Shown: in pieces, positions 7,627-15,454 of the stretch
How the letters are laid out: each line of letters starts with the position of its first letter
Position numbering within the stretch: position 1 is the stretch's first letter
Source of the DNA: Neonectria sp. B-13
Taxonomy: Eukaryota > Ascomycota > Sordariomycetes > Hypocreales > Nectriaceae
Direction: 5' to 3'
Assembly: GCA_002682825.1 (NCBI GenBank)
Contig: NOKP01000020.1
Span: 682,001-746,000, forward strand
Length of the DNA stretch: 64,000 bases
Made by a program: the position numbers and the translations under genes
Notes under the pieces: generated by a model
What the model was told of the DNA's origin: nothing
What the model saw: the letters and a program-made list of their open reading frames with translations, nothing else
Database searches by the model: none

Positions 7627-9068
7627 CTACCCGAGGACTCTACGACGCACCTCTCGCCTCATGGCCTCAGCCATATGCTGCGTTCTCTCCACAGCCCCGC
7701 GATTCTCGACGGCCCGGCGGTAAAGATATCCCATACATTCCCCGACTGAGCCCCAAGGAATACACTTGAGTATTCGGGGGGATTTGTCTCCCATCCTAGA
7801 ATCCGCTGCAGACTTATCATAGTCTTGGAGCAGCTTGCAACTTAGTTCATCGGCCATTCCCAGAATTTGACCGCACTCGAGAGGTGTGGTAGGAAGACCA
7901 GCCAGAATCCTTTCTTTATGAGTCCGAAGGCCCTTTTCAGCGCTTTCAGCGTTGTGGGTGGCCAGAAACAGTGCAGAATCGGGGAACCGAAGGTTTTGGA
8001 CCCCGTCTGGCAATTTCTGGGAGATGAACATGTCGGCAATAGCGTCGTATGAGCGGTCGGTGTCCTCCTTCGTGTCGTGAATCAGAGACCGAATTTCGTT
8101 CTCGATGTATGCTCCTCGGACAAGTTTGATAGCCACAGTCCATCCTTCCTGGGCCGCCAGTGTGATGTGGCGCTCGGCGTTGGCTTTAGATCCCTTCAGG
8201 TAGCCCTGAATTGTGTTGTACATCAAAGCGTGACCGCCTTGGTTGTGTTTCCGCATCAATGCAATTGCCCACTCATCCAGCGTGGGTTGTAAGGCCTGTT
8301 GCTCTGCATCAAGCCACACACGGCATCCCTTTCTACTCGTCTCGTGGCAAATCTCGTCAAGGGCTTTGTCGAGATAGTCGGGAATCAGTTGGCCAGCTTG
8401 CATGGCATCGAGAGCGATCGGGCCGGCACCAGTCAACCTGCAACCCGTCAGCTTGGTTCATTCATTATGAATAGTAGTTTGGAAACTCACTTCAGTGCGA
8501 TAAAGTCGCCGGCTCCAAGCATCTCCAACGTCTCCAAGTTTCCTCTCTTCCACTCATCGATCACTTCGTAGTGCCTGGGCCCATACGTGACATTTCCGGA
8601 TGGGGCCTGGTCCAGTGCCTCAACTGGATCCAGCACCACCTCCTTGGCGTATCCAAGGATAACACCATGATACCCCAGTCGTTTTACATCCTCAACAGCC
8701 TTTGAAACCTCCTGAGAATTTGTCCCTGCACAGAAATGGTTGTAGATTGCCCACCGAAGCACTCGGTTGAGAATAGGGTTTCTGTCCGCATTCAGAAGGA
8801 CCGAGTTCGACTTGGTTAGGAGTGCCATAACGGCCAGAGAGGGCCGAAGTAGCCAGCTCTTTGACATAACTGTGGTTAAGAAAGCAGAGCGCAGGAGGAC
8901 TTTAACAGGCAGCTTGGAGAGTGCTGTGGTCTCCTCCGCAACTGCCGGAATGGGACCGGCTTTGATCGAGGCATTGCTGACAAGCCTTCTGCCTTCTTGC
9001 CGGCCAAGAAAGTAGGATAAAAAGGGGATGAATTTTTTTGATTTGGTCGCCGGCCTTTGGAACATCAT
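7627..9068 (-). CDS. Proline dehydrogenase (proline oxidase), mitochondrial
   Basis: Two exons on the minus strand, 9068-8491 and 8437-7627 (intron GTGAGT..CAG), giving 462 residues. The start is the first of two ATG codons (MMFQRPATKSKKF); the frame is open further upstream but only from a GTG. The basic N-terminus fits a mitochondrial presequence. Family signatures are LGYHGVILGYAKEV, LTGAGPIALDAM, the VWLDAEQQ segment, MYNTIQGYLKGS, AIKLVRGAYIENE, FLATHNAESAEKG and the C-terminal YLYRRAVENRGAVERT, all typical of the FAD-binding (beta/alpha)8 barrel. It oxidises L-proline to P5C and passes electrons to the respiratory chain. It is divergent from P5C dehydrogenase across a 569-bp shared promoter, matching the prn/put cluster logic of other ascomycetes (equivalent to A. 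nidulans prnD, yeast PUT1). Confidence 0.93.
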
Positions 9069-9637
9069 GTTGTCTTGGGGGCGTTTTGTGTGCAAAGATG
9101 AAGGTATCAACACTGCCGTTCTAAGGCGGCCAGCGACGGTGATATACTTCACCAATCTTGGCCACCAATCCCGATTTGCACAACCCCCCACTCCACAACC
9201 TCAAGAGAAGCCTCCGAGGATAGGCGATGCGTGACGGGATGGAGTGCCGACGTCGTTATCACTGTTCGGCTTAGGCTAAACTTACTGTTCTGGAAATGTG
9301 GCGGCGGGCGGGGACGGTGCAGGTGATCACACGGACACGTTCATGCAGTGATGACGATCTACGTGATAATCAGATACGGCCAGTAGCCAATCGCCCAAGC
9401 AAGATAAGTGGCATTGATGATGGTTTGGATAGGCTACTATCGGTTTGCCCGAAGCGGGCAGTCGCATTGCCGACTTTGTCGGAGGAGGAGTCCCGACAGT
9501 CGGTTCCAGCTTCCGACCCGGAGCCCTGGTTAGTTACCATAAGAGGCATTCCTAATCTCCTCGTAGTTTCCCTGTGAGATATCGACTCGGCAACTCATTT
9601 TGCAGTTTCTTCATACAGCCGTCTCGTTTATTTCATC
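9069..9637. promoter_or_regulatory. Shared divergent promoter of the proline catabolic genes
   Basis: This 569-bp gap separates the start codons of proline dehydrogenase (minus) and P5C dehydrogenase (plus). It holds two close inverted repeats with CCG/CGG ends: CCGACTTTGTCGG at 9470-9482 and CCGACAGTCGG at 9493-9503. Such paired triplets are the usual targets of Zn2Cys6 activators, and proline genes in A. nidulans and yeast are controlled by such activators (PrnA, Put3). That these are the binding sites is inference. Confidence 0.5.
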
Positions 9638-11466
9638 ATGCAGAGATCTCAACTTGTACGACGGGTCCAACTGGCGGACTTGCACGGTGTAAGCCGAGGC
9701 AGCGCTACTCCCGCACTGCGACGATGCCTCACGCTGTTGCATCCTCCTAAGTTCGAGAATGAGAAGATGGTATGGCATATTGAATAAAACTCGTGCACTG
9801 TTTGATGCTAACTGTTGATCCCCAGCTCGACTATGCGAAGGGCTCCCCTGAGAGGGCCGAGTTGACAAAGACGTTGCAAAGGCTCAAGAGCACCTTTCCA
9901 GTCAATGTTCCGATTTCCATCAGCGGTTCTACAGTATGTAGTGTATTCATCTGAAGTCTTTCCTATCTAACATAGCCATAGGTGAAAACTGAGAAGACTC
10001 GGAAGCAGGAGAACCCGTCTTCCCACAGGGAGATTGTTGCGGAGTACGCGATTGCGACTCCGGACCAGGTCAACGCCGCAATCGATGCTGCCCTGAAGGC
10101 GAAGCCCGCTTGGGAGGCCACACCCTTTGAGGATCGAGCTGCCATTTTCCTGCGCGCCTCGGAGTTGATCGCCGGCAAGTATCGCTCTGACATCGTCGCA
10201 GCCACCATGCTCGGCCAGGGCAAGAACATTTGGCAGGCGGAGATTGAAGCACCCACCGAGACCGTGGACTTCTTCCGGTACTATATCCAGGAGGCTTGGT
10301 CTTTGTATGCACAGCAGCCTAAGGTTCAGCCCTCCGGGCAATGGAACAAAATGGAGTACCGTCCTCTGGAGGGCTTTGTGTACGCCATCGCCCCATTCAA
10401 CTTCACTGCCCTCGGAGCCACCCTTGTCGGACCCGCTGCTTTGTTGGGAAATGTGGTCATCTGGAAGCCTTCTGATTCGGCTCTACACTCAAGCTGGCTG
10501 CTTTATCAGATTCTGCTCGAGGCAGGCCTTCCGAAGGACGTGATCCAGTTCATCCCTGGCGACGCAGAGGAGGTCACCAACACAGTCCTGAAGCGACCCG
10601 AGTTTGGCGCATTGTCTTTCATCGGATCCACCAAAGTCTTCAAGGGTGTGCAAAAGAAGATTGGAAATGGCATTGGCGATGGCATCTACAACTCTTATCC
10701 CAGAGTCGTCGGAGAGACTGGCGGTAAGAACTGGGGAGTTGTCCATTCATCTGCCGACGTCAAGAGTGCTGCCCTGAACACCATCCGAGCGGCCTTCGAG
10801 TACCAGGGACAGAAGTGTTCTGCAAACTCGCGCGTCTACGTCGCGGAGTCCGTTTGGCCCGAGTTCAAGAAGCACCTGCAGAAGGAGGTTGCGCAGCTCA
10901 AGGTCGGCAATGTGGAGAATTACGAGAACTTCATCACCCCAGTCATCCACGAGAGGTCTTTCGACCAACTTAACAAGGTGATTGAGGACGCCAAGAGTGA
11001 CCCCGAGCTAGAGTTGGTTGTGGGCGGCAAAGCTTCCAAGAAGGAGGGCTACTTTGTCCACCCGACCATCTACCAAACCACCAACCCGCGTCATGACCTT
11101 ATGTCTCGGGAGCTCTTCGGACCCATCCTTGCAGTCTATGTCTTCCCAGACAACAAGTGGGAGGAGACTCTGAAGACACTTGACACCACCTCCCGATATG
11201 CCCTTACCGGCAGCATCTTTGCCAATGATCCCTACGCCTCACGGACGGCACAGACTATCTTGAAGAACGCGGCCGGCATGCTCTATCTGAACACCAAGTG
11301 CACTGGCTCCATGGTTGCTCAGCAGCCATTTGGAGGCAGCCGTGACTCGGGTACCAACGATAAGACAGGCACCATGGCTCACCTGCAGCGATTCGTCAGT
11401 GCCCGATCTATCAAGGAGGATTTTGTGCCGCTGGAAAAGATCCAGTATCCCTCAAACGAGGTTTAA
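9638..11466 (+). CDS. Delta-1-pyrroline-5-carboxylate dehydrogenase, mitochondrial
   Basis: Three exons: 9638-9769, 9826-9933 and 9982-11466, giving 574 residues. Both introns are short (56 and 48 bases); the first has a CTAAC branch motif. The first exon gives an arginine-rich presequence-like start (MQRSQLVRRVQLADLHG). The YAKGSPERAELTKTLQRL segment and the aldehyde dehydrogenase core follow: NAD-site FNFTALGATLVGPAALLGN, WKPSD, FIGST, the catalytic Glu region GETGGKN (about Glu325) and the catalytic Cys in YQGQKCSANSRVY (about Cys359). Near the C-terminus QQPFGGSRDSGTNDK is typical of P5C dehydrogenase. It oxidises P5C/glutamate semialdehyde to glutamate with NAD+, the second step after proline dehydrogenase, with which it shares a promoter. 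Equivalent to A. nidulans prnC and yeast PUT2. Confidence 0.95.
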
Positions 11467-14879: not shown

Positions 14880-14884
14880 AAAAA
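14880..14884 (-). terminator. Pol III terminator of tRNA-Phe copy 1
   Basis: Five consecutive T on the minus strand, 9 bases after the discriminator base of the tRNA at 14894-15019. Confidence 0.7.
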
Positions 14885-14893
14885 GATAGTGAT

Positions 14894-15019
14894 TGCGGTT
14901 TATGTGGATCGAACACATGACCTTCAGATCTTCAGTCTGACGCTCTCTGTCAGTGAAGGTTAGTTGTGCATCTTGAACGAGGACTCCGTGGTAACATACC
15001 CCAACTGAGCTAAACCCGC
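14894..15019 (-). tRNA. tRNA-Phe(GAA), copy 1, with a D-loop insert
   Basis: On the minus strand the gene starts GCGGGTTTAGCTCAGTTGGG (acceptor strand, D-stem 5' half, intact A box). It continues after an insert with AGAGC, the anticodon arm CAGA-CTGAAGA-TCTG (anticodon GAA), variable loop, and a T-arm ATGTG-TTCGATC-CACAT containing a B box, ending AAACCGC plus discriminator A. The 53-base insert lies at 14947-14999 between GGG and AGAGC. It begins GTATGT and ends AACTAACCTTCACTGACAG. Removing it leaves exactly 73 bases with a canonical D-arm. No intron is present at the usual 37/38 position. The acceptor stem has one G:A mismatch (5:68) shared by all three copies. Intact Pol III boxes and a T-run suggest an active gene; how the insert is removed is not known. 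Confidence 0.88.
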
Positions 15020-15093
15020 TTGGTTGAGGTGAAGGCGTCTCGTGTGGGTTATGTTGCCGGCGGAGATCGTCAGAATAGCAAAAAGGACGAAAC

Positions 15094-15098
15094 AAAAA
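15094..15098 (-). terminator. Pol III terminator of tRNA-Phe copy 2
   Basis: Five consecutive T on the minus strand shortly after the tRNA at 15107-15233. Confidence 0.7.
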
Positions 15099-15106
15099 GT
15101 AAGGTG

Positions 15107-15233
15107 TGCGGTTTATGTGGATCGAACACATGACCTTCAGATCTTCAGTCTGACGCTCTCTGCCAGTGAAGGTTAGTTATATATCTCGGATAGGGAAGAC
15201 TGTGATGACATACCCCAACTGAGCTAAACCCGC
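15107..15233 (-). tRNA. tRNA-Phe(GAA), copy 2, with a D-loop insert
   Basis: The mature parts are the same as in copy 1, including the A box, B box, GAA anticodon and the 5:68 mismatch. The insert at 15160-15213 is 54 bases, again starting GTATGT and ending AACTAACCTTCACTGGCAG; its interior differs strongly from copy 1. Exact GT-AG removal leaves 73 bases. The single G for A change in the conserved 3' block (CTGGCAG) still leaves a CAG end. The spacer to copy 1 is 87 bases and unlike it in sequence, so the units are not recent identical duplicates. Confidence 0.88.
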
Positions 15234-15311
15234 TTGCTTGTGGTTGGCGGCTTCAAGGTTGAGTAGTTATGCTGGCTTTGCGAGTGACTCGAAACAGTCA
15301 AAAAGACAACC

Positions 15312-15317
15312 AAAAAA
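15312..15317 (-). terminator. Pol III terminator of tRNA-Phe copy 3
   Basis: Six consecutive T on the minus strand, 9 bases past the end of the tRNA at 15327-15454. Confidence 0.7.
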
Positions 15318-15326
15318 CAAAGTCTT

Positions 15327-15454
15327 TGCGGTTTATGTGGATCGAACACATGACCTTCAGATCTTCAGTCTGACGCTCTCTGTCAGTGAAGGTTAGTTAT
15401 TTGCTTCGAATGAGGGATTAATGTGTGAACATACCCCAACTGAGCTAAACCCGC
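15327..15454 (-). tRNA. tRNA-Phe(GAA), copy 3, with a D-loop insert
   Basis: This is the third head-to-tail copy, 93 bases from copy 2. Mature segments match the other two. The insert at 15380-15434 is 55 bases, with GTATGT at its start, AACTAACCTTCACTGACAG at its end and a diverged interior. Its removal gives the same 73-base tRNA-Phe. The CTAAC motif lies 12 bases before the insert end, a normal branch-point spacing for ascomycete mRNA introns. Confidence 0.88.

Follow-up and report, generated by a model that had tools for sequence, protein, structure and literature searches.

Three tRNA-Phe genes in a stretch of 64,000 nucleotides from Neonectria sp. B-13 (hereafter "the window", meaning the whole stretch that was analysed) are each interrupted in the D-loop by an insert with the appearance of an mRNA intron. 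This raises the question of whether nuclear tRNA genes can carry spliceosomal introns and, if so, whether the tRNAs that they encode depend on the spliceosome. From the sequences described below, we consider it highly probable that these are functional RNA polymerase III (Pol III) tRNA genes that acquired U2-type spliceosomal introns 3' of the A box and whose tRNAs would depend on the spliceosome for their maturation.

Three interrupted tRNA-Phe genes in the window

A sequence-only reading of this DNA had proposed three tandem tRNA-Phe(GAA) genes with D-loop inserts at 14894-15454, and both the window sequence and ARAGORN bear this out. All three genes, for which that reading gave no strand, are located on the minus strand, and their features are as follows:

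15327..15454, minus strand: tRNA-Phe(GAA) gene 1 (exon 1 15454..15435, exon 2 15379..15327; spliced 73 nt, ARAGORN tRNA-Phe(gaa))
15380..15434, minus strand: mRNA-type intron 1 of Phe gene 1 (55 nt, GTATGT...CAG, tRNA bases 20/21)
15392..15396, minus strand: branch-site motif CTAAC of intron 1 (branch A 13 nt from intron end)
15107..15233, minus strand: tRNA-Phe(GAA) gene 2 (exon 1 15233..15214, exon 2 15159..15107)
15160..15213, minus strand: mRNA-type intron 2 of Phe gene 2 (54 nt, GTATGT...CAG)
15172..15176, minus strand: branch-site motif CTAAC of intron 2
14894..15019, minus strand: tRNA-Phe(GAA) gene 3 (exon 1 15019..15000, exon 2 14946..14894)
14947..14999, minus strand: mRNA-type intron 3 of Phe gene 3 (53 nt, GTATGT...CAG)
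14959..14963, minus strand: branch-site motif CTAAC of intron 3
15436..15447, minus strand: A box TAGCTCAGTTGG of gene 1, entirely 5' of the intron (same at 15215-15226 in gene 2 and 15001-15012 in gene 3)
15339..15349, minus strand: B box GTGTTCGATCC of gene 1 (same at 15119-15129 in gene 2 and 14906-14916 in gene 3)
15312..15317, minus strand: T-run of gene 1, Pol III terminator-like (T5 at 15094-15098 and 14880-14884 for genes 2 and 3)

The inserts lie between the 20th and 21st tRNA base, directly 3' of the A box, which corresponds to tRNA positions 8-19 (PMC3978253). Their lengths of 53, 54 and 55 nt are those reported in the sequence-only reading (55, 54 and 53 nt for genes 1, 2 and 3, respectively), and so are the GTATGT starts and the TGRCAG ends, which read TGACAG, TGGCAG and TGACAG for inserts 1, 2 and 3; the spacing between CTAAC and these ends, previously given as 7 bases, is 6 (CTTCAC). 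Exact GT-AG removal was likewise confirmed to yield a 73-nt tRNA-Phe from each gene, with all three spliced sequences being identical and each called as tRNA-Phe(gaa) by ARAGORN. All three genes have the A box, B box and T-runs that had been described, and site 37/38 is indeed empty, the anticodon loop being without an intron. In the unspliced window, ARAGORN made no tRNA call and no Rfam match was obtained at the gathering score.

tRNA-Phe genes across the assembly

It had been considered that intact tRNA-Phe genes elsewhere might supply all tRNA-Phe while the interrupted loci were silent. A search of the whole assembly with a 28-nt piece of the 3' exon (at most 3 mismatches) and the 20-nt 5' exon (at most 2 mismatches) found tRNA-Phe exons at eight places, representing the same eight genes for both exons, and every one of these genes is interrupted. 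The count of tRNA-Phe(GAA) genes with and without the insert, which the sequence-only reading had called for, is hence eight interrupted places (seven unique loci) and no intact copy in the assembly within these mismatch limits, and the proposed supply from intact genes fails here. Contig C56 carries two of the eight genes, which match each other as exact reverse complements over 3,028 bases and have coordinates that sum to the last contig base plus 1; due to this mirroring, the pair was counted as one locus.

The Phe exons are letter-identical at all seven unique loci. Two types of insert were found, one at five loci (GTAYGT...CTAACCTTCACTGRCAG) and one at two loci (GTAAGT...TCTAACAATC...TAG). 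The five GTAYGT inserts have a block after CTAAC in common (CTTCACTGRCAG), which counts against the spliceosomal reading as splicing alone does not demand such a block.

Interrupted genes of other isotypes

A total of 20 interrupted tRNA genes were identified, representing six isotypes (Phe, Arg, Gly, Pro, Gln and Cys). While the Phe genes were collected by exon match, the search for other isotypes used B box plus T-run patterns, which are blind to the D-loop, cover only some T-arm variants and require a T-run; 60 chosen representative stretches were then read. All seven Arg(ACG) genes listed by such a pattern (a complete list) are interrupted, after CCCAATGG, and six of the seven exon pairs are identical, with one locus differing. 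Among the matches listed for Gly(TCC), the three genes fetched (3/3) are interrupted. The single copy found of Pro(CGG) is interrupted and also carries a 26-nt intron at 37/38 (L126); the single copy found of Gln(TTG) (L164) carries its insert in the anticodon loop directly before the anticodon (33/34), along with an additional 17-nt intron at 37/38. The counts for Gly, Gln and the unsampled isotypes represent lower bounds.

One further gene, encoding tRNA-Cys(GCA) and interrupted in the D-stem, came from a scan of the sampled loci in which candidates were spliced and then submitted to ARAGORN. This gene is part of a cluster of three Cys(GCA) genes (L029, C1 near 1,340,300-1,341,250), the other two of which are intron-free and have exons identical to those of the interrupted gene, thus representing an empty site. 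A fourth Cys gene, located elsewhere (L012), is also without an insert, so that three of the four sampled Cys genes are insert-free. Overall, inserts were found in the D-arm in Phe, Arg, Gly, Pro and Cys and at 33/34 in Gln, and none lies at the canonical 37/38 position; the A box and the B box flank every insert. Removal of the insert gave a cloverleaf in 19 of 19 genes, in which A box, B box and T-run were also found; at Arg locus L128, the 20 nt examined lack a close T-run, with a TTTT further on.

Ordinary D-arms were found by ARAGORN in all six Pro(AGG) genes fetched as well as in the sampled Leu, Glu, Asn, Tyr, Ser, Trp, Val, Thr, Asp and other genes, often together with an anticodon-loop intron. 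Of 1967 candidates in a covariance search, whose first step favours uninterrupted genes, 63 were scored. Across the sampled loci, ARAGORN made 91 context-distinct calls, including five misread interrupted genes (L126, L139, L148, L149 and L164) and the doubtful L059, L118 and L147, and it called none of the unspliced Phe and Arg(ACG) genes. Because interrupted genes are missed or misread in this way, standard tRNA finders would be expected to miss them. Two patterns combining an A box with a donor were tried and rejected: a TAGC/TGGC A box with an adjoining GTRNGT donor gave 48 matches (8 of them Phe) as compared to 98 for the reversed-pattern control, and a further pattern of this type gave 84 as compared to 74, without clear excess beyond Phe. 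Arg, Gly, Pro and Gln were missed by these patterns because of other A-box letters or donors in these genes. Neither the Phe nor the Arg arrangement was matched in viral contigs or prokaryote genome contigs, collections that are not fungal.

Splice signals of the inserts

All 20 inserts are 51-57 nt long, start with GTA[ACT]G and end with AG, with the acceptor being YAG in 17 inserts and AAG in 3 (L131, L139 and L126). The branch motif YTRAC is present in 20/20 inserts with its A located 10-13 nt from the end, and reads CTAAC in 17, TTAAC in 2 and CTGAC in 1 (Cys). All 19 inserts tested (the Cys insert being outside this test) have YTAAC at the branch place, whereas among 2000 shuffles of the interiors the number of inserts that did so averaged 0.43 and never exceeded 4. 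The spliced genes gave the correct anticodon call with ARAGORN in 19 of 19 cases, and the spliced Cys gene did likewise. In Pro and Gln, no restoring placement other than GT-AG was found, whereas Phe and Arg each allow two equivalent placements and Gly allows four, GT-AG included; the alternative boundary in Phe is one base leftward (GG...CA). This non-unique boundary in Phe, Arg and Gly, the 3 AAG acceptors among 20 and the insert-free state of three of the four sampled Cys genes were weighed as points against the spliceosomal reading.

Between donor and branch, the insert interiors show a mean identity of 0.61 (0.52-0.90) in Phe, 0.59 in Arg and 0.60 in Gly as compared to 0.57, 0.56 and 0.52 for the respective shuffles, by a gapped measure with low power. 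Between inserts of different families, the mean identity is 0.57, which resembles that of shuffles. The splice-then-tRNA scan, applied to 337,588 bases, gave 164 hits among 519 candidates as compared to 0 among 463 in the letter-reversed control; the scan took overlapping loci, many of them chosen for tRNA genes, and its control addresses specificity, not frequency, while the 164 hits are redundant due to repeated loci and nested AGs.

Introns of Fusarium have been reported to have the 5' splice site GT-A74-A42-G93-T66, branch sites of the form CTRAY (91%) or TTRAY (4%) and the acceptor Y93AG, with RAG at 5.7% (PMC5677156). Judged by their letters, the motifs of the tRNA inserts, including the RAG acceptors and the TTRAY branches, fit these published introns. 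In the same genome, a looser search for mRNA introns in 317,542 sampled bases identified 36 putative introns as compared to 6 in the reversed control, and 17 as compared to 0 with a branch motif. This motif was CTGAC in 11 and CTAAC in 1 of the 17, a rough sample; CTAAC is much more frequent among the tRNA introns (17/20) than among these mRNA introns, and this difference between the two sets counts against the spliceosomal reading. Three strict searches for mRNA introns in the window yielded few: 1 locus in the first, 7 clusters in the second, of which 3 have both a donor and a branch motif, and 4, as compared to 2 in the control, in the third.

Alternative explanations

Removal of the inserts by the SEN endonuclease or a variant of it, which would cut ectopically via a bulge-helix-bulge (BHB) as in Cyanidioschyzon merolae and be followed by tRNA ligase, is in our view unlikely. 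This route does exist here, as 37/38 introns are common in the genome, and D-loop introns of C. merolae have been treated as BHB introns (PMC3978253). In addition, the five related Phe inserts form 4/4 exon-intron pairs (G-U included) in one BHB arrangement, at the central-helix place. By contrast, the remaining 14 of the 19 inserts form at most 3/4 pairs in both arrangements and all seven Arg inserts at most 2, in a pairing test that is crude, as the 37 anticodon-loop introns serving as positive controls were not cleanly recovered. Moreover, a BHB route gives no role to the GT-AG ends, the YTRAC motif or the uniform length of 51-57 nt, and none of the 37 anticodon-loop introns called by ARAGORN (7-47 nt; some calls doubtful; taken from short loci with five interrupted loci left out) runs from GT to AG. 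The possibility of a new D-loop removal route, which the sequence-only reading had offered alongside the spliceosome, is made less likely by the location of the Gln insert in the anticodon loop and of the Cys insert in the D-stem.

It appears very improbable that the interrupted genes are dead and that the tRNAs are supplied by intact genes missing in the assembly, or from elsewhere. Sequence may be missing from this assembly, which consists of 123 contigs, some with mirror-image halves, and has one weak 5.8S match, but the entire Phe and Arg(ACG) families would need to be missing. The exons are also identical at the seven unique Phe loci and in 6/7 Arg exon pairs with most interiors near shuffled similarity, the A box, B box and T-run persist, and dead genes are not expected to retain splice signals. 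It is extremely improbable that the inserts are self-splicing or belong to a mobile element with no link to the spliceosome. The interruption of several isotypes at differing positions is what a mobile element could produce, but 51-57 nt is far below the catalytic core of hundreds of nt of group I or II introns, the window has no Rfam match at the gathering score, the mean identity between families is like that of shuffles, and blastn of 19 inserts against the sampled DNA returned their own loci only (for Phe also the other Phe loci), with no insert copies elsewhere.

Proposed processing, origin and implications

The spliceosome-type reading is supported at the DNA level by the interruption of 8/8 Phe places, by five other isotypes with inserts at different positions, by the empty site in Cys and by an intron in a U6 snRNA gene of the same genome (see below). 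As these short introns carry the signals of mRNA introns, production of these tRNAs seems to require the spliceosome. According to the spliceosomal reading, Pol III would transcribe the interrupted gene from its A and B boxes, U1 would recognise GTA[ACT]G and U2 would recognise YTRAC, with AG as the acceptor; the spliceosome would then remove the insert, predicted from the signals to be excised as a lariat, and join the exons exactly, thereby restoring a tRNA that could enter the usual maturation. Transcription, the spliceosome as agent, the dependence on it and the order of steps are what we infer from features present in the DNA itself, namely the gene anatomy, the exact restorability, the signals, the lack of an intact Phe gene in the assembly and the Cys empty site.

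tRNA-Phe(GAA) would then be spliceosome-dependent and, as no intact copy was found, Arg(ACG) probably would be too. Pro(CGG) and Gln(TTG), each with its own 37/38 intron, would need the tRNA endonuclease as well as the spliceosome. The mRNA-type intron of Gln shares its loop with the 37/38 intron and would thus probably have to be removed first. More broadly, it seems likely from these genes that nuclear tRNA genes with spliceosomal introns constitute a further tRNA-intron class, with the dependent families (Phe, probably Arg(ACG)) and doubly processed precursors (Pro(CGG), Gln(TTG)) just outlined, a tRNA supply limited by splicing capacity, and several gains, the one in Cys being recent.

Six different insertion points together with that in U6 suggest several independent intron gains. 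The Cys insert looks recent given the intron-free siblings in the same cluster, or else these siblings lost theirs. If the spliceosomal reading is true, the rule that nuclear tRNA splicing proceeds without the spliceosome, as stated in a review (PMC13149111), would be broken, and the spliceosome would act on cloverleaf-folding Pol III precursors. Translation would also be tied to splicing capacity, with mRNA splicing directly limiting tRNA supply. The Cys genes with and without insert in one cluster would furthermore provide a clean system for the study of intron gain outside mRNA.

Observations on the assembly and the window

Contigs C56, C60, C27 and C114 contain mirrored tRNA genes with coordinates that sum to the last contig base plus 1 (checked on those four), and C105 contains mirrored genes about another centre. 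The former four contigs look palindromic, probably representing an assembly artefact (with letter identity for 3 kb of C56); gene counts and the assembly size of 60.9 Mb may therefore be inflated. The sole 5.8S match (C32:277588-277739; L104) is weak, at 52.7 bits with 39 of 1773 candidates scored, and adjoins an apparent interrupted coding sequence; its letters appear to resemble ITS2 of Sordariomycetes. This stretch is perhaps a relic, and the main rDNA was not found among the scored candidates.

Within the window, minus-strand ORFs at 7627-11466, which we take to be proline dehydrogenase-like, are parted by a putative 53-nt intron at 8438-8490 (GTGAGT...CTGAC...CAG). A P5C dehydrogenase gene adjoins these ORFs (PDB search), and the two together look like a proline-use cluster.

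Comparison with known systems

U6 snRNA is a Pol III transcript, and spliceosomal introns in fungal U6 snRNA genes were reportedly described by Canzler et al. in 2016. In the genome analysed here, a U6 snRNA gene at C1:5177376-5177481 (L106) carries a 55-nt intron (GATAC/GTGAGT...CACTAACATCCCAACCAG/AGAGAAG) with the branch CTAAC, the end CAG and a B-box-like GAGTTCGAAAC. Contig C83 has a second U6 copy (L105) without an intron, and the U6 intron precedent in this genome may therefore not be obligate. Like the fungal U6 introns, the tRNA inserts are mRNA-type introns within genes for small structured RNAs that would be transcribed by Pol III; unlike them, they are hosted by tRNA genes of six isotypes, in which internal A and B boxes flank the intron.

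Fungal U3 snoRNA genes have also been reported to contain spliceosomal introns with canonical pre-mRNA splice signals and, according to a 2017 paper, U3 and U6 were the only small structured RNAs then known to be often interrupted by introns (PMC5832005). The tRNA inserts share with the U3 introns the occurrence of canonical pre-mRNA signals in a small non-coding RNA, and the host RNA differs. In lichens, ectopic spliceosomal introns, a tested one being 57 bp, have been described in rDNA (PMC8527467). Action of the spliceosome on a non-Pol II transcript is a likeness between the two systems, which for the tRNA genes would follow from gene structure, and the difference lies in the Pol I transcript and rRNA host of the lichen introns.

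With regard to tRNA introns, the canonical 37/38 introns, which are processed by SEN and tRNA ligase (PMC4090602), similarly interrupt nuclear tRNA genes, and in this genome they are found in other tRNA genes as well as beside the mRNA-type intron in Pro(CGG) and Gln(TTG). The inserts are unlike these canonical introns in position, length, GT-AG ends and branch site. Nuclear tRNA genes of C. merolae have D-loop and other ectopic introns, and thus resemble the genes described here in having introns at odd positions; those introns are treated as BHB introns defined by their fold (PMC3978253), unlike the present inserts, which are described by GT-AG and branch signals. A recent (2026) review presents nuclear tRNA splicing as the work of protein enzymes in which neither the spliceosome nor GT-AG motifs take part (PMC13149111), and no earlier report of spliceosomal introns in tRNA genes was found among the open-access papers listed by our literature searches. 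On the spliceosomal reading, the kind of intron is a known one, like those in U6, U3 and rRNA, and it is the host class, tRNA genes, that would be new.
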